Below, in pieces: positions 38,487 through 64,000 of a stretch of 64,000 nt of DNA (positions are counted from its first letter, which is position 1; every line of letters starts with the position of its first letter). The stretch lies in contig NZ_BCWQ01000013.1 in assembly GCF_001592285.1 (NCBI RefSeq), forward strand, positions 62,001 to 126,000. Direction: 5' to 3'. Position numbers and translations under genes: made by a program. This DNA is from Hydrogenophaga pseudoflava NBRC 102511 (GTDB lineage: Bacteria; Pseudomonadota; Gammaproteobacteria; Burkholderiales; Burkholderiaceae_C). Under the pieces are notes generated by a model, which was not told where the DNA came from, did no database searches, and worked only from the letters and a program-made list of their open reading frames with translations.

Positions 38487-38502
38487 TTCACCGAGACCGA
38501 CC

Positions 38503-46422: not shown

Positions 46423-46447
46423 CGGCGGTTTTCCTACACTGCGCCCC

Positions 46448-48432: not shown

Positions 48433-48872
48433 GCGCGTCGCTGGACCACGCCTGGATCGAGGCCCATGTGCCGCACAAGGGCACGATGTGCCTGCTGGAG
48501 CGCGTGGTCGAATGGAGCGATCAGCGCATCGTCTGCGAGGCCATCAGCCACACCGACCCGGCCAACCCGCTGCGCGACGCAGCCCGCCTGGGCGCCGCCA
48601 CCGGCGTCGAATACGCGGCGCAGGCGATGGCGGTGCACGGCGCGCTGCTGGCACCGAGCGACGCGGCGCCGACCCAGGGCTACCTCACCAGCGTGCGCGG
48701 CCTGAGCCTGCACACCGACCGGCTCGACGACGCGGGCGGCCCGCTCACCGTCACGGCCGAGCGCCTCTCGGGCGACGCGCGCCTGATCCTCTACCAGTTC
48801 ACCCTCCACTGCGGCGAGCGCTGCCTGCTCGAAGGCCGCGCGTCCGTGGTACTTGACGCCCAGTCCCTATGA
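48426..48872 (+). CDS. Hot-dog dehydratase, ApeP-like
   Basis: A 148-residue protein of the ApeP/FabA-like hot-dog class: IEAHVPHKGTMCLLERVVEW at the start, then LRDAARLGAATGVEYAAQAMAVHG, the segment matched to the active site of this subfamily. With the ApeI-like protein it forms the dehydratase function. Overlaps both neighbours. Confidence 0.88.
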   Translation: MLSASLDHAWIEAHVPHKGTMCLLERVVEWSDQRIVCEAISHTDPANPLRDAARLGAATGVEYAAQAMAVHGALLAPSDAAPTQGYLTSVRGLSLHTDRLDDAGGPLTVTAERLSGDARLILYQFTLHCGERCLLEGRASVVLDAQSL

Positions 48873-49606
48873 ACACAGATAGCAAACGCCGCCGCGCCCT
48901 CGTCACCGGCGGCAGCGGCGGCATCGGCGCCGCCATCTGCGAACGCCTCGCAGCCGACGGCCACCACGTCATCGTGCACGCCAACCGCGGCCTTGAAAAG
49001 GCCCAGGCCCTGGTGGAAAAGATCCACGCGGCCGGTGGCAGCGCCGAGGCCGTGGCCTTCGATATCACCGACCGTGCCGCCACCGCCGCGGCGCTGGAGG
49101 CGCTGGTCGAGGCCGCGCCGATCCAGATCCTGGTCAACAACGCCGGTATCCACGACGATGCGGTCTTTCCTGGCATGACCGGCGAGCAGTGGGACCGCGT
49201 GCTGGACGTCTCGCTCAACGGCTTCTTCAACGTCACCCAGCCGCTGACCATGCCGATGATGCGCACCCGCTGGGGCCGCATCGTCAGCGTGTCCTCGGTG
49301 GCGGCCGTGGCGGGCAACCGCGGGCAGGTCAACTACGCCGCCGCCAAGGGCGCGCTGCACGCGGCGAGCAAGTCGCTCGCGCTGGAACTGGCCAGCCGCG
49401 GCGTGACGGTCAACGTGGTCGCGCCTGGCCTGATCGCCACCGGCATGATCGAGGGCACGTTCGACGCCGACGCCGTCAAGCGCATGGTCCCCATGCAGCG
49501 CGTCGGCCAGCCGGCCGAGGTGGCGCACCTGGTGGCCTTCCTGGCCTCCGACCAGGCGGGATACATCTCGGGACAGGTGATCTCGATCAATGGCGCGATG
49601 ATCTGA
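48869..49606 (+). CDS. 3-oxoacyl-ACP reductase (FabG-like), ApeQ-like
   Basis: A 245-residue SDR reducing the beta-keto group in each polyene cycle. Seen: TGGSGGIGAAICERL near residue 11, NNAGIHDDAVFPGM, the catalytic YAAAK and the GYISGQVISINGAMI end typical of FabG. ATGA overlap with the preceding gene. It closes the core biosynthetic run; an unrelated secreted protein gene follows 23 bases later. Confidence 0.92.
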   Translation: MNTDSKRRRALVTGGSGGIGAAICERLAADGHHVIVHANRGLEKAQALVEKIHAAGGSAEAVAFDITDRAATAAALEALVEAAPIQILVNNAGIHDDAVFPGMTGEQWDRVLDVSLNGFFNVTQPLTMPMMRTRWGRIVSVSSVAAVAGNRGQVNYAAAKGALHAASKSLALELASRGVTVNVVAPGLIATGMIEGTFDADAVKRMVPMQRVGQPAEVAHLVAFLASDQAGYISGQVISINGAMI

Positions 49607-50155: not shown

Positions 50156-51802
50156 CTACCGCGGCTCAGGGCGTTTGATGAACTGGGAGGCACCCGGGCG
50201 GACCGGCATGGGCTGCGGGGCACGCGGCACTTCCCGGGCGGCCACCTCGATCAGGGGCTGCCCCGGAGGGCGGACGCCGGGTGGCGGCACGGCGTATACC
50301 GGCGTGGCCTCCGGGTGATCGGGGGGCAAGGTCGTCGTTGCCTGATGGGTGGCTGACGACGGGTTGGCGGCGCAGGTGTCCTGAGCGGTCGATACGACGT
50401 GGCTTGAGGTGCTGTTCTTCGCCATCCCTCTTTGCGCTGCGGTCGAGTTGTTTGGCAGAGCCTGGCTGTGCGGCAAGCCACTCTGGAATCGTGTGTCGTT
50501 GGCCATGCCGAGCACCGAGCGCTGTCCGATGGCGGGGGAGCCATCGCCAAAACGTTGTGCTGTTGCCGCCTGTTGAGCGCCGATGTGTTGCATGGCCTGG
50601 TAGTTGAGGGTCTGATTGCCAGCCGTGAGCGAAGGCGCCGCCGACGTCGCATGGGCCGAAGGGCCGTACTGGCCTTGTTCCAATCGCTGCTCGTGGTTGG
50701 TGTGTTGCAAGGCTGTGCTTGATGGGCTTGCATTGGATGCGGGTGCCCCGGCACCGCCCCCTGGTTTTGCCATGGCATTCATGCCTTGTGCCGCGAGATG
50801 CATGGCGGCGCCGAAATAAGTCATGACGATGACGGGCGCCGCGGCGATCAGGGCAGTGAAGAAGGCCCCCATCATCGCCAGACGGGTCAGGCCGCCGCCC
50901 ACGTCGATGGACGCATCCGCGCCGCTGACGTTTTCCGTGAGCACCGACACCAGGATCGCTCGCAACGTTCCCGGGTCCATCTGGTTCACCAGCATCGACA
51001 GGAAGACCCGGAAGCCGTATTGCGACATCGCCTGCAGCGCAATCACGGCGACGATGCTCAGCGCCGCCATCGCAAAGAAGATCGACAGCAGGTACTTCAC
51101 CCTCTGCCAGAACAGCGCGTTGGTTTTCTCGAACAGGATGAAGAACAGAAACACCGGCGACAGCATGATGCCGAACACAATCGCCACCCGCGCCATCAGC
51201 AGCAGTGACGCCGCGGCGACTGCTGGGCCGCCCTGACCCAGCCAGCCCGCGGTGAGCGTGTTGCTGCCGCCCAGGGTGGCGGCGTTGCCCAGGCCCTTGC
51301 CCGTTACGTCCTGCACGACAAGATCAATCAGCGCCGTCGCAGCGATGTTGAAGTCGATCAGATCGTCGATAGGTGTGCTTGTGCCGGTCAGGAAGGAGGC
51401 GATGGCCTCCTGGAAGCCCGTCACCTGCTCGGTGATCCAAGGGGTGTTGGCCAGCGTCAGAGAGATCAAGGACAAGATCAGCACGATCTTGGCCGCCTGG
51501 AAACCGAGTTCCAGGATGGGCGTGCGCATCGTGCCGTTGATGATCTTGAACCCCTGCACCATGACCCACATCGTGACGAAGATCGACGACATCACGCCAA
51601 TCACCTTGGCCAGCTCGCGGGCAGCCCCATGCTGGTAGATGCCCTGCAACTGGTCCTCGATCACGTACTCGCGCAAGCGGCAATAGAAAGACGCGTCGTT
51701 CAACGCGTCCTGGTAATGCGTGGGCAAGCCGGAGAACACCTCCGCCTGCTCCACGAAGCTGCTGATGAAGTTGGCTGCGTCCAGCGCCGTGCAATCTGCC
51801 AT
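50156..51802 (-). CDS. VirB6/TrbL-like type IV secretion membrane protein
   Basis: A 548-residue protein. Residues about 60-330 have five to seven transmembrane helices in the VirB6/TrbL pattern (KVIGVMSSIFVTMWVMVQGF, AASLLLMARVAIVFGIML, NALFWQRVKYLLSIFFAMAA, LAMMGAFFTALIAAAPVIV). The last ~200 residues are low-complexity, rich in Gln, Asn, Pro, Ser and Ala, as in the long VirB6 of bacteria-killing type IV systems. Only VirB5-like and VirB6-like components are encoded here; no ATPase or coupling protein is in the window. It may work with a full T4SS elsewhere in the genome. It ends 25 bases from the secreted-protein gene. Confidence 0.75.
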   Translation of the reverse strand: MADCTALDAANFISSFVEQAEVFSGLPTHYQDALNDASFYCRLREYVIEDQLQGIYQHGAARELAKVIGVMSSIFVTMWVMVQGFKIINGTMRTPILELGFQAAKIVLILSLISLTLANTPWITEQVTGFQEAIASFLTGTSTPIDDLIDFNIAATALIDLVVQDVTGKGLGNAATLGGSNTLTAGWLGQGGPAVAAASLLLMARVAIVFGIMLSPVFLFFILFEKTNALFWQRVKYLLSIFFAMAALSIVAVIALQAMSQYGFRVFLSMLVNQMDPGTLRAILVSVLTENVSGADASIDVGGGLTRLAMMGAFFTALIAAAPVIVMTYFGAAMHLAAQGMNAMAKPGGGAGAPASNASPSSTALQHTNHEQRLEQGQYGPSAHATSAAPSLTAGNQTLNYQAMQHIGAQQAATAQRFGDGSPAIGQRSVLGMANDTRFQSGLPHSQALPNNSTAAQRGMAKNSTSSHVVSTAQDTCAANPSSATHQATTTLPPDHPEATPVYAVPPPGVRPPGQPLIEVAAREVPRAPQPMPVRPGASQFIKRPEPR

Positions 51803-51832
51803 GCTTCCTCCCCCGGGCGTTGTCGCCCCTGT

Positions 51833-52507
51833 TTATTGATTCTCAAATGGGCTGTTCATGTTGATGACCCGGAAGGTGGGCGCCCTGGCGGCGGGCCGCT
51901 CGGCCCCAGCCTCGTCGTTGACCGGCGGCTTGCTTACCGTGGACTCCCTGGCCTCGTTCATCTGCACCGCATAGAGCTCATCGCGCTGTTTGTAGGCCTG
52001 CATCAGACCCTGCATGCGCGCCGCCTCGCCGAGCATCAGGGCCTGACGGGCCTGGATTTCGGTCTGGAAGCGCTGGAGTTTTCCAGCCTCGCTCTCGACA
52101 CCGCGGGAATCGTCCAGCAGCTTCTTGATGGCGTCCAGATGCTTGTTCATCTTGTCCAGATGAATGTCGTACTGCATCAGGGAATTGATTGCCAGTTTGC
52201 GCCGGCCGATGCAGGCATCAAAGTACTTGGCATTGACCTTGCGTTCGCCGCAGCTGGCCAGGGTTTTGATGTATTTCTCCTTTTCTTCGGCGGCGATTTC
52301 GAGTTCTTGGAAGGCTCTGCTGGTGGCTGCGAGGTCCTTTTGTATTTCTCCATCTTGAATGTTGTTTAATCCTCTGACTCGATTTATGCTTTCAAGTTGA
52401 CGAATTGCCTCGGCGTCGTGTACTGCCCACTGAGCAAACGCGGCTGGGTAAGCAGAAATCAATAAGAGTGTTAGAGCCAGTTGGTGTGAAAATCTGGTGG
52501 TCTTCAT
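51833..52507 (-). CDS. VirB5/TrbJ-like periplasmic type IV secretion component
   Basis: A 224-residue exported protein: signal peptide ending AYPAAFAQ, then WAVHDAEAIRQLESINRV, the typical VirB5/TrbJ opening, and a long predicted coiled coil (residues about 50-190, rich in Glu, Lys, Gln and Ala). Two Cys near residue 85-100 could form a disulfide. It lies 30 bases upstream of the VirB6-like gene and overlaps the end of the small lipoprotein by one base (TAATG). Composition near its start is notably lower in G+C. Assignment is by architecture, so alternatives remain. Confidence 0.68.
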   Translation of the reverse strand: MKTTRFSHQLALTLLLISAYPAAFAQWAVHDAEAIRQLESINRVRGLNNIQDGEIQKDLAATSRAFQELEIAAEEKEKYIKTLASCGERKVNAKYFDACIGRRKLAINSLMQYDIHLDKMNKHLDAIKKLLDDSRGVESEAGKLQRFQTEIQARQALMLGEAARMQGLMQAYKQRDELYAVQMNEARESTVSKPPVNDEAGAERPAARAPTFRVINMNSPFENQ

Positions 52508-52872
52508 TAGTATCCCCTGGTAATGCTTTCCCCATTAATAATGCTCCAGGTTGCATCATTAATAAGAAAGTTGTCTGAGGTTGTTGAGCTGTCAGGTGCA
52601 AAGCTCACATATAGCTTTTCGGAGCCGTCCTCGTATTGGTAATGCGCGGTTGAGCTTCTTACTGGTGTTCTTGCAGTCAACTCATAAACCTGCTTCTTCG
52701 TCATCCCCGGCTGCAACCGGTCAAAAGCTTCACGCAGCGTCGGTGGCTCATCGCTGCCCCCGCCCCCGCCGCCACAAGCCGCCAGCCCAGCGCCCATCGT
52801 TGCGGCCAATGCCCATTGCCCCCATCTCCGGCGGGTGATCGGGTTTTGACGGGTGGTATTTGATGTGTTCAC
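52507..52872 (-). CDS. BamE/SmpA-like small lipoprotein
   Basis: A 121-residue lipoprotein with a twin-arginine-like leader (RRRWGQWALAATMGAGLAAC) and lipidated Cys33 in LAAC, followed by six glycines. The C-terminal part LQPGMTKKQVYELTARTPV then a DG...LYVSF strand resembles the SmpA/OmlA fold. The start is GTG at 52872, chosen because a strong AAGGAGGA lies 5 bases upstream. An ATG at 52908 overlaps the lipase stop by 4 bases but has no ribosome site; it would give a longer leader. Role unknown; position suggests a partner of the secretion or effector cassette. Confidence 0.72.
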   Translation of the reverse strand: MNTSNTTRQNPITRRRWGQWALAATMGAGLAACGGGGGGSDEPPTLREAFDRLQPGMTKKQVYELTARTPVRSSTAHYQYEDGSEKLYVSFAPDSSTTSDNFLINDATWSIINGESITRGY

Positions 52873-52877
52873 GGGCT

Positions 52878-52885
52878 TCCTCCTT
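52878..52885 (-). promoter_or_regulatory. Strong ribosome binding site AAGGAGGA that decides the lipoprotein start
   Basis: A near-perfect complement of the 16S rRNA 3' end, 5 bases before the GTG start of the small lipoprotein gene (minus strand). It is much stronger than most ribosome sites in the window and argues for the GTG over the upstream ATG. Confidence 0.75.
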
Positions 52886-52904
52886 GGGGTGGTTGACAAG
52901 ACAA

Positions 52905-54608
52905 TCATCCGCGAGCGATGGCGGCCTCAGGCCTGGCTTGCGGGGATGGGGTTGGGGATACGAATGCCGCATCCCGCATGGCCGTGTTCATGGCGACCGC
53001 TTCGCGCCAGTGCTCGGCCGGGGATTGCGAAAGCGCTTGCGCCACGCTGAACTCGCGCAGCGGTGGGTATTCCTGGCGCAGCGCAATGGTGTTGCCGTCG
53101 CGACCGAAGATGAACTGACCCACCGGACCCTGGTTTTCGTAGCGGGAGGCCTCTTTGGCTGCTGCAGCCGCCAGCGTGTGAATCTGTCGTTGATTCATCC
53201 CGAGTTGGCCGAGCCGGGGGGCGAGCTGTTCCATGAAGCGTTCGGCATGCTCGCTCTGACGGGTGCTGGGCTGCGGGCGACCGGCCCCTGCGGGCTTCTT
53301 GGCGACCGAGTCGAGCCGTTTGTCCAGCGACTCCCGCAGCTGCTGTCCGGCATCGGCGGGCAGGCGCTTTTCATAAAGCAGTTCGCCGGGCCAGTCGCGG
53401 CGGCTGAGATAGATGTCCACCCGATCGCTGGTCTTGCCGGGCAGGTCGCGCTCGACGATGACTGCGCTCAGCGGCACTCCTTTGTCTGAGACATAGTCCT
53501 TGCGCCAGACCGCTCCCTCTGCGCCATTGAAGCGCCGCCAGCCGTCGGCGCGCTCGCGTTCGCCATGGGCGACCGGGTCGAGCTCCCGCGGGGCATGCAG
53601 ACCCTCGCGCGGGTCGTGTGTAACGGGGTAGTCGGCCCGGCCGGCCGCTCCCTCGAGCACCCGGCTCCCTACTGGAAACGCCGATCGCGCCAGCGAATGT
53701 CGGCCTGCATTGGCGACCTTGTCTGAGTACGGCAGATCACGCTCGTGGTAGACCGTGGCGCTGCCGTCGTGGCGCTTGTCTCTCGGCATCTCCTGGATCG
53801 GTACGCCCGATTTCTGGAACCAGTCGTTGGACGCTTCAAGCACCCGAGCGCCGATGCCTCGGTCGTAGCCGCCGCCGATGTTGCAGTGGTTGCCGGTCAC
53901 CGGGACCACGGTGACATCGGGGTGGGTGCTGTGGTGCACGCCTTTGAAGAGGGTGCGGTACTCGTTCTGCGCCTGCACCACGGTGATATTTTCCGAGGTG
54001 GGCGAGAAAGAGCTGTTGCCGTCGTAGCCGGTGGTCACCGGGTCGTAGATCATGGCCCCGGCCAGACCCAGCTGACCGGGGGGTATGAGGGTCTTGCCAG
54101 TTTGTGGATCGGTCAGGCCGCGCTCGTAGAGCAACTGGCTGAAGATGGCCGCCGTGCCACCGCCCCGGCTGAAGCCGGTGGCCATGACCTTCAGGGATTC
54201 TGTGGGGTTGGCTTCGGGGTGGGCGCGGAGCCAGTCGGTGGCTTCGTCTTCGAAGTCCTTGTATGCCCTTGATGCTGTGGCCCGCATTTCTGCCGATGGC
54301 ATGAGCGCGTCGGCAAGACCTTCGGCACCCGGATCGGTGCCGACGCCCCGGTAGTACTGGGTCTTGAAGTTGTCCGCTTCTAGCGGTTTCATCTGCGACC
54401 AGAGTTCGGCCACATTAGTGGGCAGTGGATTGCCCGAGAGCTTGAGGTCGTCCTTGTCGTTGTTGGTGCCGTCGAAATGGGCCACGAAAACAAACTGCTG
54501 GCCGGTGCGGGCGCCCACCTGTGGCGCAGGTGAGCGGGCTACGGCCTCGACCTGGGAGTCCAGGCGAACGCGTTCCGCTTCGTTGAGCCGCTTGACCACC
54601 TCGCTCAT
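52905..54608 (-). CDS. Tle1/DUF2235-type lipase, probable T4SS- or T6SS-delivered antibacterial effector
   Basis: A 567-residue enzyme. The DUF2235 (Tle1 phospholipase) signature is complete: FDGTNNDKDD near residue 45, nucleophile Ser147 in TGFSRGGGTAAIF, AMIYDPVTTG, and GNHCNIGGGYDRG near residue 240 with the catalytic His. Residues about 410-567 form an extra domain of helices and a strand, with TLAAAAAKEA, FIFGRDGNTIALRQEYPP and REFSVAQALSQSPAEHW. In layout this resembles the C-terminal XVIPCD recruitment domain of bacteria-killing T4SS effectors, though similarity is not proven. No VgrG, Hcp or PAAR gene is nearby, and VirB-like genes are. It would degrade membrane phospholipids of rivals. 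Confidence 0.82.
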   Translation of the reverse strand: MSEVVKRLNEAERVRLDSQVEAVARSPAPQVGARTGQQFVFVAHFDGTNNDKDDLKLSGNPLPTNVAELWSQMKPLEADNFKTQYYRGVGTDPGAEGLADALMPSAEMRATASRAYKDFEDEATDWLRAHPEANPTESLKVMATGFSRGGGTAAIFSQLLYERGLTDPQTGKTLIPPGQLGLAGAMIYDPVTTGYDGNSSFSPTSENITVVQAQNEYRTLFKGVHHSTHPDVTVVPVTGNHCNIGGGYDRGIGARVLEASNDWFQKSGVPIQEMPRDKRHDGSATVYHERDLPYSDKVANAGRHSLARSAFPVGSRVLEGAAGRADYPVTHDPREGLHAPRELDPVAHGERERADGWRRFNGAEGAVWRKDYVSDKGVPLSAVIVERDLPGKTSDRVDIYLSRRDWPGELLYEKRLPADAGQQLRESLDKRLDSVAKKPAGAGRPQPSTRQSEHAERFMEQLAPRLGQLGMNQRQIHTLAAAAAKEASRYENQGPVGQFIFGRDGNTIALRQEYPPLREFSVAQALSQSPAEHWREAVAMNTAMRDAAFVSPTPSPQARPEAAIARG

Positions 54609-55183
54609 GGTTTGGCCTTCTCTGCGGCCTCACGCGCTGCGCGGGCGCTAGGGCGTCCTCCGCGTACCTTTGGCGGGGCGTTGTCCGGGTAGAGGGTCTT
54701 GACGTCCAGATGCTTCGTCGAATCAGGGCCGTTGGGAGCTTTGCCCGGTGGCAAGTAATTGAGCTTTGTTCCCCATTCGGTATGGGGTATCAAATAAACG
54801 TACAACTGGTTTTCGTCGATTAGGAAATAGACCGTTGTGTCATGCATCTCCTTTGGGGATGGCAGACGCTTTCTCAGATCGACCTTGTCCTCATACACCT
54901 GGCCCGTCGCCTTGTCCCTCCACTTGACGTAGAGGAAATCGCCGATAGGCATGTTGCCTGCCGTACCACAGTTTTCCCCGCGCCGGGCTTTGCCCGACTC
55001 GACTTCTTGCCGGGTGTGAGCACCCATACCATCGCCATAGAGGCAATCGAGGATTTCGACCTGTGGCATGTCGACCGCCTGGTAGTAATCCACGCCGTGA
55101 AACGCAAACCGCTTCTCTTCGCTACAAGCGGAGAATGTGCTCATGATTGAAATCCCGATCAGAAGATGAAGTAGCCGGCGCAT
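54605..55183 (-). CDS. Lipoprotein overlapping the lipase gene, probable immunity protein (DUF3304-like)
   Basis: A 192-residue lipoprotein: signal peptide MRRLLHLLIGISIMSTFSAC with lipidated Cys20. The mature part FHGVDYYQAVDMPQVEILDCL, VKWRDKATGQVYEDKVDLRKRLPSP and YFLIDENQLYVYLIPHTEW resembles DUF3304-type lipoproteins that protect against Tle phospholipase effectors. Its stop overlaps the lipase ATG by 4 bases (ATGA) and it precedes the toxin, as immunity genes often do. The C-terminal 30 residues are Arg/Ala-rich. The pairing is inferred from position and family, not shown. Confidence 0.75.
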   Translation of the reverse strand: MRRLLHLLIGISIMSTFSACSEEKRFAFHGVDYYQAVDMPQVEILDCLYGDGMGAHTRQEVESGKARRGENCGTAGNMPIGDFLYVKWRDKATGQVYEDKVDLRKRLPSPKEMHDTTVYFLIDENQLYVYLIPHTEWGTKLNYLPPGKAPNGPDSTKHLDVKTLYPDNAPPKVRGGRPSARAAREAAEKAKP

Positions 55184-55436
55184 GGTGTGCAGAAGCCCGG
55201 GGGCTTTTGGATTCGTGTGGGGTGGTGAGGACGAGGCGAAGCCTCGCACGGACGGTCCGCAGGCGGCGTCCTTGCACGGTCGGGGCAAATGCCCGAAGCA
55301 GCTTGGTGGTGTTTGGATGGTCGGCTCCCTGGCGCCCGTGGTGGTCCACAGGTCGCCTGTGCGTCGGATCGGGTCCGACAGCGGGAGATGCTAGCGTCAA
55401 ACCGCTTGGGCTCGGCCTCAAGCGTGCACTATTTGG
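55184..55436. other. 252-base non-coding spacer with small inverted repeats at the island/antiporter boundary
   Basis: No gene is seen. It holds three short hairpins: CGAGGC-GAA-GCCTCG (55232-55246), CACAGG-TCG-CCTGTG (55347-55361) and GTCGGA-N5-TCCGAC (about 55363-55378). It is likely to contain the immunity-lipase promoter and perhaps the terminator of the antiporter operon. No direct repeats or attachment site were recognised. Confidence 0.5.
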
Positions 55437-56615
55437 TTACATTTTGAACCGCACATGCGGTGCCACCACCGGCACCGTCAGCATGGTGCTGGCCACGGCC
55501 ATCAGCAGCAGGGCGGTGAAGGTCTCGCTGGTGATGACCTGCTTGTCCAGCAGGATGTTGGCGAAGATGATCATGATCAGCGCCTTGGTCTGCAGCAGCC
55601 AGCCGATGACGCTGGCCTCGCCCGGGCCCCAGCCCAGTACGCGGCCGGCGATGCGCACGCCGATCAGCTTGCCCGCCACCGACACGAACAGCAGCAGCGC
55701 CGCCGCGGCGAACACCTCGGCACCGCCGACGGCCCAGTTGGTGCGCAGGCCGGTGGAGAGGAAGAACACCGGCATCATCACCAGCAGCACGTGGTGGCGC
55801 AGCTGGTCGAGCCTGTCCTGATCGAACCAGTGCGCGTCCATGATGGCGCCGGCCAGGAAGGCGCCCACCATGTAGTGCAGGCCGGCCCAGTCGGCGCCGA
55901 AACCGCAGGCCGCGAGCCAGATCAGCGCCACGTACCAGCGGTCGCGCTCCTGCAGCCAGGCCATCAGGCGCCGGAAGCCCCAGCCCAGCAGCACAAAGGC
56001 GATCAGGAAGACCACCTGCTTGCCGATGCGGCTCCAGTCCATCAGGATCAGCGCCAGCACGCCCCAGATGGCGATGTCGTCCAGGCTGGCGTAGCGCAGG
56101 ATGCGCTGGCCCAGCGGGTGGCGCAGGATCTCCAGCTTCTCCATCAGCAGGATCAGGATCGGCAGCGCGGTGACCGCGCAGGCCATGCCGATGCCCAGAA
56201 CGAACTGCCAGTGCTGCGCCAGCGGTCCCATCCACCCGGGAAACTGCAGCAGCACCAGCGCGGCGCCGCAGCCCAGCAGCAGCGGCGAGCCCAGCGCCAG
56301 TCCGGCGGTGATGCCGCTCTCGCGCCGGTGCTTCCAGGCCTGGGCCAGGTCCAGCTCGACGCCCGCGATCATCACGAACAGCATCACCGCCCACCAGGCG
56401 ATGCCGTTGAGCGACTGCACCACCGCTGGCGTGAACACGAACTGGTAGTACTCGGGTGACCACTTGCCCAGCACCCCGGGCCCGAGCAGGATGCCCATGA
56501 TGATCTGCACCACCACCAGCGGCGCGAAGTAGTCGGTGTTGAAGACTCTCCAGACCAGCCAGGGCAGGCTGAAGATGATCAGCATCGCGATCAGGAAGAT
56601 CTCGGTGGTGTTCAT
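55437..56615 (-). CDS. CPA2-type cation:proton antiporter
   Basis: A 392-residue membrane protein with about 12 helices and no cytoplasmic TrkA domain. It is similar to Kef/NapA-type sodium or potassium/proton exchangers: VQIIMGILLGPGVLG, SLDDIAIWGVLALI and QTKALIMIIFANILL (core unwound helix region). It is the last gene of the minus-strand pigment arm, overlapping the UbiE-like gene by 4 bases, so it is co-transcribed. A role in pigment export or pH balance is unproven. Confidence 0.88.
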   Translation of the reverse strand: MNTTEIFLIAMLIIFSLPWLVWRVFNTDYFAPLVVVQIIMGILLGPGVLGKWSPEYYQFVFTPAVVQSLNGIAWWAVMLFVMIAGVELDLAQAWKHRRESGITAGLALGSPLLLGCGAALVLLQFPGWMGPLAQHWQFVLGIGMACAVTALPILILLMEKLEILRHPLGQRILRYASLDDIAIWGVLALILMDWSRIGKQVVFLIAFVLLGWGFRRLMAWLQERDRWYVALIWLAACGFGADWAGLHYMVGAFLAGAIMDAHWFDQDRLDQLRHHVLLVMMPVFFLSTGLRTNWAVGGAEVFAAAALLLFVSVAGKLIGVRIAGRVLGWGPGEASVIGWLLQTKALIMIIFANILLDKQVITSETFTALLLMAVASTMLTVPVVAPHVRFKM

Positions 56616-57373
56616 GCCGGGCGCACCCCGGTGTACTCGCGGAAGATGCCCAGCGACACCGAGCAGCCCACATCGGCAAAGCCGGCGTGCCGCAGCGCAT
56701 CCATGATGGTCTCGGGGTCCAGCGCCGCCTCAATGGTGTCGCCGTAGTAGGCCCAGAGCTTCTGCACGTCGGCGTGCCGGCCGGTGAGCCGCGCCATCAG
56801 CGGCACCAGCACCGAGATGTGGAAGCGCAGCAGGCCCCGCAGCAGGCGGCCGCGCGGGCGGCTGATTTCCATGATGCAGACCTTGCCGCCCGGCTTGAGC
56901 ACGCGCAGGTACTCGGACAGGACCTTGTCCAGGTCGTCGACATGGCGCAGGGCATAGCCCATGGACACGAAGTCGGCCTGCGCGTCGGGCAGGGGAATGG
57001 CCTCGCCGAAAGCCTCGATGGTCTCCACCGACACCTTCTTGCGCAGCTCGACCAGCATGCCGGGCGAGGGGTCGACCGCGATCACCCGGCCCGTCGGGCC
57101 GACCAGCTCGACCCCGGCCACCGTGACCAGTCCGGTGCCGGCCGCCACGTCCACCAGCGTCATGCCGGCGGACAGGCCGTTGCGCTTGAGCACGTCGCGC
57201 CGGTACCAGGCGCCGCTGCCCAGGGCGGTCAGGCTCTCGGCGCTGTCGTAGCCGCCGGCCGCCTGGTTGAACATGGTCTGGGTGAGCGCGCGGCGCTCGC
57301 CCTCGCTCTTGAAATAGGGGCGCAGGCGCGGGTCGTCCTTGAGCGCGCCTTTGCCCTGGCTGGGGTGGTTCAT
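56612..57373 (-). CDS. UbiE/Coq5-like SAM-dependent methyltransferase
   Basis: A 253-residue methyltransferase of the UbiE branch: FNQAAGGYDSAESLTALGS, SAM motif VDVAAGTGLVTV near residue 70, and YALRHVDDLDKVLSEYLRVL, GGKVCIMEISRPRG. The genuine UbiE acts on quinone precursors, but its place in a pigment operon makes ring or polyene methylation more likely. The start at 57373 (MNHPS) sits one base after the glycosyltransferase stop; its stop overlaps the antiporter start. Confidence 0.85.
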   Translation of the reverse strand: MNHPSQGKGALKDDPRLRPYFKSEGERRALTQTMFNQAAGGYDSAESLTALGSGAWYRRDVLKRNGLSAGMTLVDVAAGTGLVTVAGVELVGPTGRVIAVDPSPGMLVELRKKVSVETIEAFGEAIPLPDAQADFVSMGYALRHVDDLDKVLSEYLRVLKPGGKVCIMEISRPRGRLLRGLLRFHISVLVPLMARLTGRHADVQKLWAYYGDTIEAALDPETIMDALRHAGFADVGCSVSLGIFREYTGVRPA

Positions 57374-57374
57374 G

Positions 57375-58145
57375 TCAGTGTTCCGATCCAAAAAGACGTC
57401 GCCAGACCAGCAGGGGCAGCCGCAGCACGAAGCCGATGAAGAGGCGGGTGTGCATCCAGGTCAGCAGGGTGTTGTCGCGCAGGTATTTGAAGTGGGAGAC
57501 GCCGCCTTCCTCCGCGCTGAGGTAGCGCACCGGGGCGTCGATGTTGAGCGGCCGCACGCCGGCCCAGCACAGCCGCACCACGGCCTCGGGGTCGAAATCG
57601 AAGCGGCGCATGAAGCGGTTGCCGCGCATGATCTTCGCCAGCGGCGCGATGGGGTAGACGCGGAAGCCGTAGAGCGAATCGCCCACGCCCATCCACAGCG
57701 TTTCCAGGTTGGCCCAGCCGTTGGAGACCTTGCGGCCGTTGACGCGCAGGGCCGGGGCCTCGGGGCCGAACACCGGCTTGCCCAGCACCATGGTGCCCGG
57801 GTCGCGCTGCGAGGCGGCCATGAAGGTGGGGATCAGGTCGGCCGGGTGCTGGCCGTCGGAGTCCATGGTCAGCGCGTGGGTGAAGCCCTCGCGCGCGGCC
57901 TGTTCGATGCCGGCGAGCACGGCCGAACCCTTGCCCTGGTTCTGCGGCAGCACGATGACACGCAGACCAGGGTCGCGGGCCGCTTCGGCCTGCAGCAGCC
58001 GGTCGGTGCCGTCGGTGCTGCCGTCGACGACGACCCACACGGGTGTCCATTGCGCGCGGGCCTGGCGCACGGTGTCGATGACGCCCGGGCCGGGGTTGTA
58101 GCTGGGGATCAGCACCAGGTGGGTGCTCGAAGCAGAAGCGGTCAT
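57375..58145 (-). CDS. Family 2 glycosyltransferase, dolichyl-phosphate-mannose-synthase-like
   Basis: A 256-residue glycosyltransferase with the DxD motif MDSDGQHPADLIP, the HLVLIPSYNPGPGV opening and NGKVSNGWANLETLWMG-like middle. There is no clear transmembrane segment, only a hydrophobic tail (LFIGFVLRLPLLVWRRL). Such enzymes add sugar from a nucleotide donor. It overlaps the PlsC-like gene by 4 bases. With the deacetylase in the other arm, it supports a sugar-linked polyene. Confidence 0.87.
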   Translation of the reverse strand: MTASASSTHLVLIPSYNPGPGVIDTVRQARAQWTPVWVVVDGSTDGTDRLLQAEAARDPGLRVIVLPQNQGKGSAVLAGIEQAAREGFTHALTMDSDGQHPADLIPTFMAASQRDPGTMVLGKPVFGPEAPALRVNGRKVSNGWANLETLWMGVGDSLYGFRVYPIAPLAKIMRGNRFMRRFDFDPEAVVRLCWAGVRPLNIDAPVRYLSAEEGGVSHFKYLRDNTLLTWMHTRLFIGFVLRLPLLVWRRLFGSEH

Positions 58146-58912
58146 GCGGTTGGGGCGGTGGGCACGCGGACCTCGCGGCGGAAATAGGCCTCCAGCTCGG
58201 TGGTGAAGGCGGTGTGATCGGTGGGGGCGTCGAAGCGGCGGCCCAGTCGGGCCTTCACGGTCAGCGGCAGCACCGGCGGGCGCAGCAGCGGCCAGGCCTT
58301 GCCCAGGTAGGCGGTGGAAAAGTCCAGCAGCACGGTCTGCACCGGGACACCGGCGCGGCGGGCGATCATGCCCGTGGTGGGCTGCAGCGGGTCGACCGGG
58401 AAGTGCACGGTGCGGCTGCCTTCGGGGAACAGCACCAGGTGGGTGCCCTGCTGCAGCGCCTCGCAGCTGCCCGTGATGATCCGCAGAATACCGTCGTTGC
58501 GCACGTAGCGGGCCAATCGGGCCGCCGAGCCGAACAGCGGGTTGTCCATCAGGCTGGCCTTCATCACGCAGATCGCGTCGGGCAGCTGCGAGACCAGGAT
58601 CACTGCGTCCAGCAGGGATGGGTGGTTGGCTGCGATGATCAGGCCGCGTTCGTTGCGCAGGCCCTCGATCTCCGACAGGTCGAAGCGGCAGGCACACAGC
58701 CGCTCCAGCAGGCCCAGGTAGAAGCGGAATCCCGCCGCGATCACGCGCCGGCCCAGCCGCTGGCCCACGGGCCGCGGCAGCAGCGGGTGCAGCAGCATGG
58801 CAAAGGGAAGCCAGGTCAGGCAGAGCAGCGCCAGTGCACCCAGGCCGACGTGCATAGCCAGGTGCTCGTACAGGGTCCACAGCGGACCACGTGGCCGCAG
58901 CGTGTCATTCAT
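58142..58912 (-). CDS. PlsC-like lysophospholipid acyltransferase family protein
   Basis: A 256-residue membrane-anchored acyltransferase. Seen: N-terminal helix, then the catalytic HX4D motif NHPSLLDAVIL, the acceptor motif LFPEGSRTVHFP and GVPVQTVLLDFSTAYLGK. It would attach a fatty acyl or polyene chain to a glycerol or sugar acceptor. It is a second acyltransferase besides the LpxL-like one in the plus arm. The start overlaps the MipA/OmpV stop by 8 bases. Confidence 0.88.
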   Translation of the reverse strand: MNDTLRPRGPLWTLYEHLAMHVGLGALALLCLTWLPFAMLLHPLLPRPVGQRLGRRVIAAGFRFYLGLLERLCACRFDLSEIEGLRNERGLIIAANHPSLLDAVILVSQLPDAICVMKASLMDNPLFGSAARLARYVRNDGILRIITGSCEALQQGTHLVLFPEGSRTVHFPVDPLQPTTGMIARRAGVPVQTVLLDFSTAYLGKAWPLLRPPVLPLTVKARLGRRFDAPTDHTAFTTELEAYFRREVRVPTAPTA

Positions 58913-59759
58913 CGACCGGTACGCGCTCGCTCGATTCGCCCAGCACCCAGGACACCGCCACGCCGCCGGCCACGTAGTGCCGCGTGCGCACCAGCGGGCT
59001 GGCCTCGAAGGCCGCGCCGCGCAGGCTGTCGTAGCGCAGGAAGGCGCCCACCCACTGGTTGCCGAAGCGCTTGGAGATGCCCACCAGGTACTGCATGCCG
59101 GCGAACCCGGCGCCGGCCCGGTAGGCCGCTCGGTCGGCGGTGGCGTAGGCGGCGTCGACGCCATAGAAATACTGGTGCTGCTTGCGGTCGCCGAACAGCG
59201 GGCCGGCCTGCAGGCCCACGTTCCAGCCCGGCAGGCCCGACAGGTCCGTGAGGTCCAGGTTGAGCTTGGGGTGCAGCACCCAGCCCAGGCTCTTCGGGTT
59301 GCGCTCCAGCGTGTAGGCCGCGCGCAGTGGCAGCAGCAGCTTGAGCTGGCGCGCCTTGCCCTCGGTCTGCCACAGGGTCAGGTTCAGCTGCGGGCCGACC
59401 TCGAAGTTGGCGCGCAGGTCGGGCATGCCGGCGCGCGCCCGGATGTCCTCGCTCGATGCGGGGGGCGAGAGCGCGGCCGAGACAGTCAGCTCGGCGCGGT
59501 CGGAATCGAACAGCTCGGCGCGCACGCCGTCGCGGTCGGCCTTGAGGAACTCGCCGCGGTAGACGAAGTAGGGGGTGGGCAGCACGAAGGCCTGGCGCTG
59601 GTCCGAGCCGCGGTAGGCCGGAAAGCTCACCGCCGCCACACCGGCGCCGGCTTCCCACAGCGGCTTGTCTTCCGCGCCCTGGGCCGGGGCGGTGGCACCC
59701 AGGCCCAGGAGCAGGCCAGCCATACCCGGTGCGGACGCGAGGCGGAGCAGGGTCTTCAT
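58905..59759 (-). CDS. MipA/OmpV-family outer-membrane protein
   Basis: A 284-residue beta-barrel-type protein. Signal peptide (MKTLLRLASAPGMAGLLLGL then APAQGA), then the family opening VSFPAYRGSDQRQ, FVLPTPYFVYRGEFLKADRDG and a series of amphipathic strands ending SWVLGES. MipA/OmpV proteins bind murein-synthesis partners or act as porins. An outer-membrane protein in a pigment-transport locus is plausible for final placement. ATGA overlap with the halogenase-like gene. Confidence 0.87.
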   Translation of the reverse strand: MKTLLRLASAPGMAGLLLGLGATAPAQGAEDKPLWEAGAGVAAVSFPAYRGSDQRQAFVLPTPYFVYRGEFLKADRDGVRAELFDSDRAELTVSAALSPPASSEDIRARAGMPDLRANFEVGPQLNLTLWQTEGKARQLKLLLPLRAAYTLERNPKSLGWVLHPKLNLDLTDLSGLPGWNVGLQAGPLFGDRKQHQYFYGVDAAYATADRAAYRAGAGFAGMQYLVGISKRFGNQWVGAFLRYDSLRGAAFEASPLVRTRHYVAGGVAVSWVLGESSERVPVDE

Positions 59760-61093
59760 GCGTTGTACATGGCGGGGTCGTCCACCTTGCGGATGTTGAA
59801 GCGGCGCCGCTGCCAGGCCCTGAACGCGCGTCGGGGCTGGGTGATGTTGGCGATGTAGTACATCGCCTTGAATATGAGGATCGAGCGCCAGATCGGGGTC
59901 TTGCCGAACACGTCGCCCGCCAGCACCGACAGGATGGCTTCCTTGACGCGGAACACGTTCTTGGGACCCATCAGGAAGTCGCGCATGATCGGGTTGGTGA
60001 CGCGGTAGATGAACCAGGAGAACTCCTTGGGCCCGTGGCGCATCACGCGGTCGAAGCGCTTGAGCGCGGCTGCGGCCCGCTGCGGCTGGCGCAGGCAGGT
60101 GTCGATGGTGTCGGCCCCCACCACCGCGCTGTGCATGGCGAGCCAGACACCCGAGGAGAACACCGGGTCGATGAAGGCATAGGCGTCGCCGAGCATGAGG
60201 TAGCTCTGGCCGTGGTTGCGTTCGGAGACGTAAGAGAAGTTGCCGGTGGCTTCCACCGGGCTCACCTGCGTGGCCATGGACAGGCGCTCGGCCAGCGGCG
60301 GGCAGGTGGCGATGTTGTCCATCATGAACTCCTGCAGGCTGCGCGAGCCCTTGGACTTCATGTGGTACGGCCAGGTGACCATGCCGATGCTGGTGGTGCC
60401 GTTGGTCAGCGGGATGAACCAGAACCAGCCGTGCGCGAACCAGAAGATGCGGATGTTGCCTTCTTCCTCTCCTTCACCGCGGTCGGCGCCGTGGAAGTGG
60501 GCGTAGAGGGCCGAGCTGTTGTGGCGCGGGTTGCGGTGCTTGATGCGGAAGCGGTTGGCCAGGAAGGTGTCGCGCCCGGAGGCGTCGACCACAAAGCGCG
60601 CGTGCCAGCGCACCGCCTGGTCATCCGCGTCCATGGCGCTGACATGGGCGCCGCCGCCGTCCAGGAATTCAACCCCGGTGACCTTGACGCCCTCCAGCGC
60701 CAAAGCGCCCTTGTTGCGCGCATGGCGGAACAGGATGTGGTCGAAGTCGGCGCGCCGCACCTGGTAGGCGGCGGGCATGGACTTGTCCCAGGCGTCGGCG
60801 AAATAGAAGGTCTGGGCGCGGCCGTGCTCCATGGAGACGAACTCCGCACCCGGCTTGTGCATGCCGATGGCCTTGATCTCGTCGGCAATGCCCATCTGTT
60901 CGAACAGCGGCAGGTTGGCGGGCAGCAGCGATTCACCGATGTGAAAGCGCGGGTGGTGGGCCTTTTCGAGCAGCACCACCTGGTGGCCTTTTTCGGCGAG
61001 CAGGCTGGCCACCGTGGAGCCGGCCGGGCCGCCGCCGATGACCAGCACATCGCAGGAAGGGGCGCTGACGCTGCTCGGGACCGGTGTGTTCAT
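59756..61093 (-). CDS. Flavin-dependent halogenase-like oxidoreductase (first of two)
   Basis: A 445-residue flavoprotein. Seen: FAD motif VIGGGPAGSTVASLLAE at residues 18-34, the conserved HPRFHIGESLLPANLPLF near residue 54, the halogenase motif WFWFIP near residues 223-228 in HGWFWFIPL, and GDAYAFIDPVFSSGVWLAMHS near the C-terminal FAD site. The WxWxIP motif is diagnostic of FADH2-dependent halogenases and separates them from monooxygenases. In xanthomonadin-type loci a similar protein is thought to brominate the aryl end. The start at 61093 (MNTPVP) is favoured; a longer ATG at 61114 exists. Confidence 0.85.
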   Translation of the reverse strand: MNTPVPSSVSAPSCDVLVIGGGPAGSTVASLLAEKGHQVVLLEKAHHPRFHIGESLLPANLPLFEQMGIADEIKAIGMHKPGAEFVSMEHGRAQTFYFADAWDKSMPAAYQVRRADFDHILFRHARNKGALALEGVKVTGVEFLDGGGAHVSAMDADDQAVRWHARFVVDASGRDTFLANRFRIKHRNPRHNSSALYAHFHGADRGEGEEEGNIRIFWFAHGWFWFIPLTNGTTSIGMVTWPYHMKSKGSRSLQEFMMDNIATCPPLAERLSMATQVSPVEATGNFSYVSERNHGQSYLMLGDAYAFIDPVFSSGVWLAMHSAVVGADTIDTCLRQPQRAAAALKRFDRVMRHGPKEFSWFIYRVTNPIMRDFLMGPKNVFRVKEAILSVLAGDVFGKTPIWRSILIFKAMYYIANITQPRRAFRAWQRRRFNIRKVDDPAMYNA

Positions 61094-61169
61094 GGCGTGG
61101 GATTCGGAATGCAATGCGGAAGCCGCCGGGCGGGTGCCGGCGGAAGCCCCGCATCATAGTCCGTCGCCC

Positions 61170-62813
61170 TCAGCCGACCGGCTCGGGCAGCCGGCCCGGC
61201 AGCAGGGCGCGGGCCGGGTCATTGGCGGCCGGGTCGGGCGCCACCAGCCGGCCCAGCGCGCCGGTGTCGAGCCCCGGATGGTCGGCCAGGGCGCGACCGA
61301 GGATCTGCCCGGCCAGCGTGTGCAACTGGGCGTTGGACGCACGGATGCGGGCCACGAAGCCGGCGGCGTCCAGTGTGTCGTTGAGGCTGCGGTTGAGTTC
61401 GGCGAACCAGGGCAGGGTGGCCTGGTCCAGCATCACCGCGGGGTTGCGCTTCTCGCTGACCACCGACCAGGCGCGCAGGAAGTCCTGCACCGCTCGGTTG
61501 AGCGCCTGGCACTGGGCCAGCTCGGTGCGCAGTGCGGCCAGCGACGACAGGTCGGCCAGCCGGTCGTGGAAGACGAACTGCGCCAGCACGCCCCAGTAGT
61601 AGGTGTAGTCCCAGATCACCTTGACCGGCAGCACCTCGGGGTCGCCGAAGATCGGGTACTGGTCCTGGTAGAGCGCCAGCGTGCTCTCGTAGAACGAGTG
61701 CAGCAGCTGGTCGAACACCTGCACCCGCGCGCCCAGGCGCTCGCCGCGCCGGTCCATGCTGACCAGCTCGGTGATGTATGTGTTGCTGATGGCGATGAAG
61801 TCGCTGCCTGGTGAATAGAAGGGGTCGAGGAACAGCCCGGCCTCGCCGGTCAGCGCCCAGCGGTCGGCCGAATAGACCTGCTTGCAGCCGTAGGAGAAGC
61901 GCTTGAAGAAGGCGAAGTCCTGCAGCAGGTGGCGCTTGCCGTCCAGCTCGTCGAACAGCAGCGGCTGGTAGGTCTGGAACCAGTCCATGGCCTTCTCGAA
62001 GGTGTCCATGGTGTCCAGCGGGTGGATCGCCGGGTCGGCCACGATGCCGACCGAGTGCGAGCCCGAAGACAGCGGGATCAGCCAGACCCAGTAGCCCGCA
62101 CCGACCAGGTGGTTGGTCGAGAGCCAGCGCGCCGGCGGGTCGCAGCGCCCGCGCCACTCGGCGTTGTCGGTCCAGCGGTCGATCTCGATGCGGTCCTTGA
62201 TCCGGAACCAGATCGCGTGGGCGGCGTGGTTGTTCGGCTCCGCCAGACCGAGCTTGCGCTTGATCAGGCCGGCGCGGCCGCAGGCGTCGACCACCCAGCG
62301 GCTGTCCACCTCGTGTGGCGATGTGCCCAGCGAGTAGCCCACCCGGTGCAGGGCGGCCGGGTCGGCGGACGACTCGGCCAGGTGGATCTGCCGCACCATG
62401 GAGCCCTCGATCACCTCGATGCCGCGGCGGCGGGCCTCTTCGACCAGGAAGTTCTCGAAGATGCCGCGGTCGATCTGGTAGCTGGGCACGGAGAGGTGGC
62501 GGCTGGCGCCGATCTCGGTCACCTGGTCCAGGTCGCGCCGGCCTTCGGAGAAGAAGAAGCGGAAACCGAACTTGCGCAGGTGGCGCTCGCGCAGGTGATC
62601 GCCCAGCCCCAGGACCTTGTCGAAGTAGTGCGCACCGACCTCGACCGTCGATTCACCCACCTTGTGGGCGGCTTCGGGCGCCGGGCCTGCGCGGCGCTCC
62701 AGCACCAGGATGTCCAGGTCGGGCTCTCTCTGTCGCAGCTGCAGGGCCAGCGTCAGGCCGGCCAGTCCACCACCGAGGATGACGACGTCGCGGGGAGGGT
62801 GTTGCGGATTCAT
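61170..62813 (-). CDS. Flavin-dependent halogenase-like oxidoreductase (second of two)
   Basis: A 547-residue flavoprotein clearly different from the first: FAD motif VVILGGGLAGLTLALQLRQ at residues 11-29, HKVGESTVEVGAHYFDK, halogenase-type motif WVWLIP near residues 240-246 in GYWVWLIPL, and ALTGEAGLFLDPFYSPGSDFI. The C-terminal 200 residues are longer than in the first copy. The presence of the motif supports halogenation of another position or chain end, but some WxWxIP relatives act as other monooxygenases. It is separated from its neighbours by 61 and 76 bases on the same strand. Confidence 0.82.
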   Translation of the reverse strand: MNPQHPPRDVVILGGGLAGLTLALQLRQREPDLDILVLERRAGPAPEAAHKVGESTVEVGAHYFDKVLGLGDHLRERHLRKFGFRFFFSEGRRDLDQVTEIGASRHLSVPSYQIDRGIFENFLVEEARRRGIEVIEGSMVRQIHLAESSADPAALHRVGYSLGTSPHEVDSRWVVDACGRAGLIKRKLGLAEPNNHAAHAIWFRIKDRIEIDRWTDNAEWRGRCDPPARWLSTNHLVGAGYWVWLIPLSSGSHSVGIVADPAIHPLDTMDTFEKAMDWFQTYQPLLFDELDGKRHLLQDFAFFKRFSYGCKQVYSADRWALTGEAGLFLDPFYSPGSDFIAISNTYITELVSMDRRGERLGARVQVFDQLLHSFYESTLALYQDQYPIFGDPEVLPVKVIWDYTYYWGVLAQFVFHDRLADLSSLAALRTELAQCQALNRAVQDFLRAWSVVSEKRNPAVMLDQATLPWFAELNRSLNDTLDAAGFVARIRASNAQLHTLAGQILGRALADHPGLDTGALGRLVAPDPAANDPARALLPGRLPEPVG

Positions 62814-62874: not shown

Positions 62875-63672
62875 TCAGGGGGCGATGCGCAGGTCCAGCG
62901 ACTGGTGGGCCGACAGCGGCCAGACGAGCCGCGCCGGTTGCGCGGCGGCCAGGGCCTCGAACAGGGGCAGGGCGGGCGCCATGGCGTTGCGGCCCAGCGC
63001 CTGCGCGGCGGGGCTGCGGGCGGCCGGCGGCTCGGTGGCGCCGGGGCGCAGTTGCCAGTCCAGCCGCGCGGTGCGGGCCGGCCCGGCCTGCGGCGCCAGC
63101 ACCAGCGCCACGGCCAGTGCGCCCTGGCTGCGGGTGGTGTTGGTCAGGGCGCCGACGGCGGCGGTGTCGTAGGCCACGTACAGCACCGGCCGCTGCTCGG
63201 CCTGGCACTGCACCAGCGCTTCCAGCAGGCCGTGGGCGAAGCTGTGCGCGGCGCCGCTGACCGCGGTGTTGCTCTGGCTGTTGCGGGTGAGCATGCTCCA
63301 GAACCCGGCGGGCGCGTTGTGGATCGAGTGCAGGAACCGGGTGGGCGACACCAGGGTGGGTGTGTGCACCAGGGTGCGGCACAGCTCGTCGATCACGGGC
63401 AGGTCGCCGTGGGCCGAGGCAAACACCGCCAGCAGTTGCGCGGGGTCGTGGCCACAGGCGGCCACCGCTTCGTGGGCGGCGGCCAGCGCCAGCGCCACGG
63501 TCTGCGGTGCCCGGCGCCGCTCGGCCGGTGGCAGCTGGCTGGGCGGTGGAATCGGCAGCGGCGGGTCCGCCGGAGCGGCCTCGCCCCGCAGCGCGGAACG
63601 TGCAGCCGTCCAGCCCGGCAGGGTGGGTGACCAGAGCGCGAGGCCGTCGATGTGGGCGCTGAACCGGCTCAT
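62875..63672 (-). CDS. Second chain-length-factor-like ketosynthase subunit, ApeC-like
   Basis: A 265-residue shortened ketosynthase-fold protein of exactly the same length as the copy at 47635-48432. It shares the IDGLALWSPTLPGW start, a ADPPLP...PPAERRRAPQTV linker and the TRFLHSIHNAPAGFWSM segment (compare TRFHNSVHNAAAGYWGI). It overlaps the adjacent ketosynthase by 4 bases, forming a second KS-CLF pair in the minus arm. The sequences differ enough that they likely pair with their own ketosynthase. Confidence 0.87.
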   Translation of the reverse strand: MSRFSAHIDGLALWSPTLPGWTAARSALRGEAAPADPPLPIPPPSQLPPAERRRAPQTVALALAAAHEAVAACGHDPAQLLAVFASAHGDLPVIDELCRTLVHTPTLVSPTRFLHSIHNAPAGFWSMLTRNSQSNTAVSGAAHSFAHGLLEALVQCQAEQRPVLYVAYDTAAVGALTNTTRSQGALAVALVLAPQAGPARTARLDWQLRPGATEPPAARSPAAQALGRNAMAPALPLFEALAAAQPARLVWPLSAHQSLDLRIAP

Positions 63673-64000
63673 GAATCCGCTCCGTCGGCGCGACCGAACA
63701 CCAGCACGCAGTTGCTGCCGCCGAAGGCAAATGCGTGGCTGGCCACTGCGCGCACCCGCTGTTCCCGCGGCGCCAGCAGCAGGCGGCTCCGAATGCCCGC
63801 CTCGGGGTCGCGGGTGTTTACCGTGCCGGGCAGCAGGCCGTGCTCCAGCGCCAGCAGGCTGAAGACCGCGCCCAGGGCGCCGGCCGCGCCCAGGGTGTGG
63901 CCGGTCATGCCCTTGGTGGAGCTGACCGGTGTGCCAGGGGAAAAGCGCCGCCCGATCAGCCGCGCCTCGACCTCGTCGTTCTTGGGCGTGGCGGTGCCGT
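63669..64000 (-). CDS. Second ketosynthase of the KS-CLF type, C-terminal part (runs off the window)
   Basis: The last 109 codons of a ketosynthase: GTATPKNDEVEARLIG with the first active-site His just outside, STKGMTGHTLGAAGA with the second, and the ending VASHAFAFGGSNCVLVFG. The remaining Cys region lies beyond the window. It is cut only by the window edge. It resembles the ApeO-like copy at 46448-47638 in these motifs. Confidence 0.9.
   Translation of the reverse strand, partial: GTATPKNDEVEARLIGRRFSPGTPVSSTKGMTGHTLGAAGALGAVFSLLALEHGLLPGTVNTRDPEAGIRSRLLLAPREQRVRAVASHAFAFGGSNCVLVFGRADGADS

Follow-up and report, generated by a model that had tools for sequence, protein, structure and literature searches.

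Does a bacterial yellow-pigment locus that encodes two different halogenase-like flavoproteins make a doubly halogenated pigment? The question is raised by a 64,000-nucleotide stretch of Hydrogenophaga pseudoflava NBRC 102511 DNA (contig NZ_BCWQ01000013.1, positions 62,001–126,000; the whole stretch analysed is called the window here), in which the flavoprotein genes FAD1 and FAD2 stand within an aryl-polyene locus. An earlier account made from the letters alone (the sequence-only reading) had suggested that two such copies dihalogenate a new pigment, or that one of them has been repurposed. We favour, at a probability of about 0.5, a locus for a xanthomonadin/arcuflavin-type aryl polyene, with FAD2 as a standard-type halogenase and FAD1 as a flavoenzyme that acts on polyene bound to acyl carrier protein (ACP) and possibly does not halogenate. 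The two genes are:

61170–62813, minus strand: FAD1, a 547-aa halogenase-like flavoprotein of the SPG clade, with K81, WVWLIP at 242–247 and FLDPFYSPG at 328–336.
59756–61093, minus strand: FAD2, a 445-aa halogenase-like flavoprotein at the arcA position, with WFWFIP and, in 452-aa numbering, K87 and FIDPVFSSG.

Both genes are intact and lie within a single minus-strand run of the locus. The listed open reading frame (ORF) of FAD2 covers 59756–61114 (452 aa from a TTG at 61114); the ATG at 61093, seven codons further in, is the more likely start. As the sequence-only reading had stated, each protein has an N-terminal flavin adenine dinucleotide site (GGGLAG in FAD1, GGGPAG in FAD2) and the WxWxIP motif, and the two are divergent, sharing 26–27% identity, differing by about 100 residues in length (FAD1 being the longer) and falling in separate clades. 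The profile search that it had proposed places both above the cut-off of 21 bits for Pfam Trp_halogenase PF04820 (FAD1, 46.4 bits; FAD2, 100.5 bits), so the likeness is more than a chance motif. No listed NCBIfam model reaches its cut-off for either protein (for FAD2, among the best 25 of 73 models); among the matches listed, the CmlS halogenase model comes first for both, below its cut-off. The solved structures nearest FAD1 by sequence are mostly halogenases, again with CmlS first. The closest named record for FAD1, at 98% identity in a comparison that may omit records of the genome itself, is from H. flava, and the host, previously described as Comamonadaceae-like, is a Hydrogenophaga by nearest named record.

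The catalytic lysine, whose loss from both proteins would have spoken against halogenation, is present in FAD1 and in FAD2. FAD1 thus carries the GxGxxG, WxWxIP and lysine features of flavin-dependent halogenases. Its K81 column is invariant in 9/9 aligned relatives, and both the lysine (79 by pattern, one by eye) and W.WLIP are kept in all 80 named loci; these are the best 80 of 424 candidates brought by FAD1, and the loci are not all independent, because some of the named ones come from genomes that are also represented by other loci analysed (for example, L067 and L032). FAD2 carries the same three features together with an Fx.Px.Sx.G loop able to give two backbone NH groups: K87, both W and P of WxWxIP, and F, D, P, F, S, S and G of FIDPVFSSG are invariant in 27/27 aligned relatives.

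The halide loop sets FAD1 apart. In flavin halogenases, the halide is bound through the backbone NH of two residues, of which the second is usually a glycine (PMC7336383; papers are cited here for the portions available to us). FLDPFYSPG is read in 80/80 named FAD1 loci, and, by sequence alignment only, Pro335 corresponds to the residue that supplies the first of these NH groups. In PrnA, we take the halide residues to be numbered Thr348 and Gly349. Since proline offers no NH, FAD1 does not present two backbone NH groups at this site and should be without the first halide contact; with its halide-binding loop changed, it may lack halogenase activity altogether. DPFYSPG aligns with DPLFSQG in CmlS and with DPIFSSG or DPVFSSG in PltA, 3nix, 3e1t (which we take to be CndH) and ChlB4; 8zop, aligned to FAD2, reads STG, and the solved relatives in the printed alignments carry S, T or Q at the position of Pro335.

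The proline recurs in distant relatives of FAD1. All three class-level relatives (L148–L150) read DPFYSPG. Plasmid homologues matched in eight records, of which the two read for the loop both have the proline (DPFYSPG in Janthinobacterium, DPLFSPG in Gloeothece) and the other six are at 25–29% identity. The Janthinobacterium gene (L184:13923–15521) lies near a type I polyketide synthase, and the Gloeothece gene (L185:13881–15689) near a fatty acid desaturase, an ectoine synthase and an HpaB-like gene; both products belong to the SPG clade. As a control, halogenase-like proteins of the class were read at 29 loci with a pattern that required both motifs within one frame, repeated proteins being counted once and the loop of five tryptophan-halogenase-like proteins being chosen by eye from printed pieces. 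Five loci (L004, L158, L172, L178 and L181) gave no row; among the 22 distinct proteins that did, all 21 non-SPG proteins have S or T, and the lone SPG protein, L175, belongs to the FAD1 clade itself (G344). Besides FAD1 and FAD2, the H. pseudoflava genome has one weak Trp_halogenase match outside the window (G000:C13:44505–44705, L004), barely above the cut-off.

This loop bears on the possibility that both proteins are working halogenases, FAD2 acting on the aryl ring and FAD1 on the polyene end, to give a dihalogenated pigment like xanthomonadin I. The flavin site, motif and lysine kept in both proteins would fit, as would the structural neighbours of FAD1 and the two bromines of xanthomonadin I, a dibrominated aryl polyene (PMC3949708). 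We nevertheless consider it unlikely. The proline stands in the loop of all 80 FAD1 loci, and the clusters of two Xanthomonas species are reported with 'a halogenase gene' (PMC3691225). Despite its arcA 'halogenase' gene, Azoarcus sp. BH72 makes a nonbrominated aryl-heptaene ester, C41H52O4 (PMC3949708), so an arcA-type gene does not guarantee a halogen. In genomes G123 and G562, the FAD2-profile match at 1e-10 is FAD1 alone (no other FAD2-like protein was found in G562 at that threshold), and FAD1 therefore does not need FAD2. The suggestion that two copies mean dihalogenation did not hold up, as these are not recent copies and one has the proline loop; the option of one repurposed flavoprotein was well judged. 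A doubly halogenated polyene from Hydrogenophaga would also not be new as a type, because dibrominated aryl polyenes are already known (PMC3949708; for Steroidobacter, a dibrominated xanthomonadin, PMC5979037). That arcuflavin, C41H52O4, forms with arcA present (PMC3949708) could instead point to a locus in which FAD1 halogenates and FAD2 does no halogenation; the standard SSG halide loop is found in FAD2 and not in FAD1, which makes this improbable.

FAD1 occurs together with a second ketosynthase (KS) and its ketosynthase-like partner (CLF), encoded immediately upstream of the two flavoprotein genes and in the same orientation, in keeping with the ketosynthase genes noted before:

62875–63672, minus strand: CLF2, ketosynthase-like partner (Ketoacyl-synt_2, PF13723).
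63669–64000, minus strand: KS2, the second ketosynthase, of which this is the 3′ part; the gene continues past the window end (L007:1669–2931, to about 64931 in window count).

KS2 and CLF2 are both upstream of FAD1 in 70/80 named loci. Among 60 relatives (own genome counted), a FAD2-like match of at least 50% was found in 25, one of them split in two pieces, and FAD1 (at least 74% over most of its length) in nine, all of the same genus; in a tenth, G020, just a piece of it was matched. FAD1 is an accessory gene. Where it is missing, in G035 and G006, the next recognised gene beyond FAD2 is dnaE. In a sample of 250 family genomes (cut-offs 1e-60 for FAD1 and FAD2, 1e-40 for the MMPL exporter that serves as locus marker), the exporter was matched in 53. 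FAD1 was found in 16, own included, all exporter-positive and 15 also with FAD2; the hypergeometric value for FAD1–exporter co-occurrence is 2e-12, with genomes treated as independent though related. FAD2 was found in 51 genomes: 46 matches are strong (E below 1e-100) and all exporter-positive (46/53), and none of the five weaker ones (E 1e-64 to 1e-69) is.

The surroundings of the KS2–CLF2–FAD1 trio vary. Other locus genes lie near FAD1 in Hydrogenophaga, Leptothrix, Sphaerotilus and Curvibacter, and the module itself is present in records of both H. flava and H. pseudoflava. In Variovorax, the trio stands apart from them within the up to 9 kb examined on each side; the sole further locus matches, in four loci, are weak FabG-like genes (32–38%), and the neighbours in one Variovorax boronicumulans locus include an MFS transporter, a two-component system, an O-antigen ligase-like gene and RdgC. 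In the FAD1-bearing family genomes G272 and G130, no other KS above 42% to KS2 was found at 1e-30, so the trio seems to supply the KS–CLF there. FAD1 was found in 4 of 350 genomes of a class sample, own included; in two of these, G560 and G562, from other families, an aryl-polyene-like locus is present, and the sole KS–CLF pair found there precedes FAD1 (41–44% identity). Within Hydrogenophaga, a second FAD2-like group (L053–L056; 53–55% to FAD2) lies beside an MT1-like methyltransferase (42–46%), with no other clear locus gene in the DNA read around it.

Trees, both made by a quick method, separate the components. In the KS tree (50 of 93 rows, thinned), the 16 KS1 rows of the genus group together (support 99) and 28 KS2 rows form another group (98); the KS of G560 and G562 stand beside KS2 (91), a join that is unsure given long branches. 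The flavoprotein tree has 76 rows, its FAD1 rows being 25 of the 80 named loci and five others (L148 and L176, where no frame was found, are left out). All 30 FAD1 rows fall on a single side of a very long branch (support 100), and FAD2 rows are interspersed with other SSG-type proteins. These separate clades, with the 26–27% identity, led us to reject a recent duplication of one halogenase.

FAD1 can persist on its own. We list 12 loci in which it lacks KS2 or CLF2 nearby; four end at a contig edge and eight do not, the latter (L039, L040, L069, L070, L072, L073, L076 and L120) having no adjacent pair despite 7–9 kb of upstream DNA. L069 retains a 101-aa fragment with 71% identity to the C-terminus of KS2, and L120 a match to KS2 of 31% only. 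In G005 and G007, no KS2-type KS was found genome-wide, the best KS to KS2 (51–53%) being in the KS1 place. A role for FAD1 as mere helper of KS2–CLF2 is weakened by the eight loci that retain it without the adjacent pair. Patchy presence in the genus and the detached trio in Variovorax would also fit a FAD1 without use, carried along in a horizontally acquired KS2–CLF2–FAD1 cassette. The ratio of nonsynonymous to synonymous substitution makes that scarcely credible: in six pairs it is 0.08–0.31 for FAD1 (FAD2, 0.09–0.22), and it is 0.08 in the G005/G007 pair, which is without KS2–CLF2. FAD1 was, moreover, retained after loss of KS2–CLF2, with at least four changes of the 'KS2 kept or lost' state on the flavoprotein tree.

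Several points weigh against the reading that we favour. The pattern Fx.Px.Sx.G is perhaps present in all active halogenases (PMC8407142), and FAD1 formally fits it. The importance of the crystal halide site for halogenation has been called unclear, and Xcc4156, which brominates only, deviates at the usual second halide residue (PMC7336383). FAD1 has kept its lysine and WxWxIP over a long divergence, for which retained hypohalous acid (HOX) chemistry is the easiest explanation; a review calls the role of the WxWxIP residues in halogenation unclear (PMC10696468). The papers cited describe no halogenation by ArcA, so that even for FAD2 the role as halogenase, assigned from sequence, is putative. 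The tie of FAD1 to a KS2-type KS is not strict: of the ten genomes with a KS of at least 60% to KS2, nine have FAD1 and G180 has none, and in 7 of the 16 genomes with FAD1 the closest KS is at just 50–57% to KS2. Finally, two FAD2-like flavoproteins accompany FAD1 in G560, one of them encoded at a distance of about 17 kb from it.

Taken singly, FAD2 is most likely a standard-type halogenase, to judge by its sequence features, and FAD1 most likely a flavoenzyme on ACP-bound polyene, possibly non-halogenating. In both, FADH2 from a generic reductase would react with O2 to give the C4a-hydroperoxyflavin. FAD2 would then convert halide, if available, to HOX, which the lysine would deliver to the aryl head. 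FAD1 appears to retain what is required to form the hydroperoxyflavin, as well as the lysine where the tunnel ends, and not the usual halide site; it would act on the ACP-bound aryl-polyene chain from KS–CLF. With one halide NH missing, it could be a halogenase that handles halide in an altered way or, slightly more likely, an oxygenase or oxidase that does not halogenate. Its neighbours, KS–CLF here and a type I polyketide synthase in Janthinobacterium, point to carrier-bound acyl chains as substrate. More tentatively, the SPG clade may be an overlooked halogenase-like subfamily that has lost ordinary halide binding and employs its retained lysine and tunnel motif to oxidize carrier-bound polyketide chains in another way, serving in Burkholderiales as tailoring partner of a second aryl-polyene KS–CLF pair.

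The rest of the locus matches the arc/xanthomonadin type, as had been proposed: it has KS with a CLF-like partner, ACP, ligase, ketoreductase, dehydratase, acyltransferases, LolA and the MMPL exporter. Both dehydratases were assigned by position and reading by eye.

37227–38486, plus strand: KS0, ketosynthase with N- and C-terminal domains.
38431–38784, plus strand: acyl carrier protein, arcV position.
38781–40133, plus strand: AMP-binding ligase, arcT position, starter activation.
Ending at 40425: second dehydratase-like reading frame, read by eye.
40422–41342, plus strand: lipid A acyltransferase-like protein, arcR position.
41285–41908, plus strand: LolA-like carrier, arcQ position.
41905–44268, plus strand: MMPL exporter, arcP position.
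44468–45703, plus strand: polysaccharide deacetylase-like protein, arcN position.
45697–46422, plus strand: methyltransferase, arcM position (domain detected in the longer ORF 44749–46422).
46391–47638, plus strand: KS1, first ketosynthase, arcK position.
47635–48432, plus strand: CLF1, arcJ position.
48429–48872, plus strand: putative dehydratase, from its arcI position alone (longer ORF without a Pfam match).
48869–49606, plus strand: FabG-like ketoreductase, arcH position.
55437–56615, minus strand: Na/H exchanger family transporter, arcG position.
56612–57391, minus strand: UbiE/COQ5-like methyltransferase.
57375–58142, minus strand: family 2 glycosyltransferase, arcE position (domain detected in the longer ORF 57375–58880).
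58142–59164, minus strand: acyltransferase, arcD position (listed ORF; true start probably inside).
58905–59759, minus strand: MipA/OmpV-type outer membrane protein, arcC position.

The locus has two KS–CLF pairs, KS1–CLF1 in arc order and KS2–CLF2 followed by FAD1; KS2–CLF2–FAD1 is a second, accessory module. From KS2, the minus-strand order is KS2, CLF2, FAD1, FAD2, MipA, acyltransferase, glycosyltransferase, methyltransferase and Na/H exchanger. At the convergent junction of the two operons, 50156–55288 has a GC content of 61–64% (2-kb bins) vs 68% for the window and holds a TrbL/VirB6-like gene, a gene with a type VI secretion Tle1-like phospholipase domain and small unknown genes. FabG and the Na/H exchanger are 5.8 kb apart in the window and 3.1 kb apart in L033, which also has a Tle1-like gene (58%) there; the distance is 29–1171 bases in 13 other loci and about 21 kb in G027 (reckoned from two loci). 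Just past the window end, L007:3011–3697 (plus strand) encodes a 228-aa protein without a Pfam match; because its relatives lie between ACP and ligase, the arcU position, in L057, L058, L059, L077 and L120, the locus extends almost to dnaE.

Halogenase calls in aryl-polyene loci rely on WxWxIP and the Pfam family. Predictions of brominated pigments may be wrong, because the widespread FAD1 clade passes both yet has an altered loop. The clade offers natural enzymes for asking what decides between halogenation and oxygenation.

A search of open-licence PMC papers found none on a Hydrogenophaga aryl polyene, on an aryl polyene with a flavin-dependent halogenase or on numbered halide-binding residues, and nothing in print on the FAD1 (SPG) clade. 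Among characterized flavoproteins, CmlS, PltA, ChlB4 and 3e1t align with most of FAD2 (E 2e-45 to 2e-54) and FAD1 more weakly (E 4e-13 to 1e-18); unlike them, FAD1 has proline in the halide loop. Figure 5 of PMC3691225 includes clusters with an ORF17/ORF16 KS–CLF pair and a halogenase gene, Variovorax paradoxus among the examples, the halogenase genes being drawn as absent only in L. enzymogenes and Xylella; our Variovorax loci carry KS2–CLF2–FAD1, and the available part of that paper names no halogenase subfamily for its Variovorax gene. With the arc locus of Azoarcus sp. BH72 (arcuflavin; PMC3949708, Table 1), the Hydrogenophaga locus shares the content and order of KS, CLF, dehydratase and ketoreductase, the order from Na/H antiporter to arcA and most of the arcM–arcV set. 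FAD2 takes the place of arcA, a likeness by gene position. The two arms of the locus are neighbours in Hydrogenophaga and unlinked in Azoarcus (PMC3949708). Unlike the Azoarcus locus, that of Hydrogenophaga has no XanB2/ArcB gene at the arcB place, where the ORFs of FAD2 and MipA overlap (no genome-wide search for it was made), and it adds the KS2–CLF2–FAD1 module.

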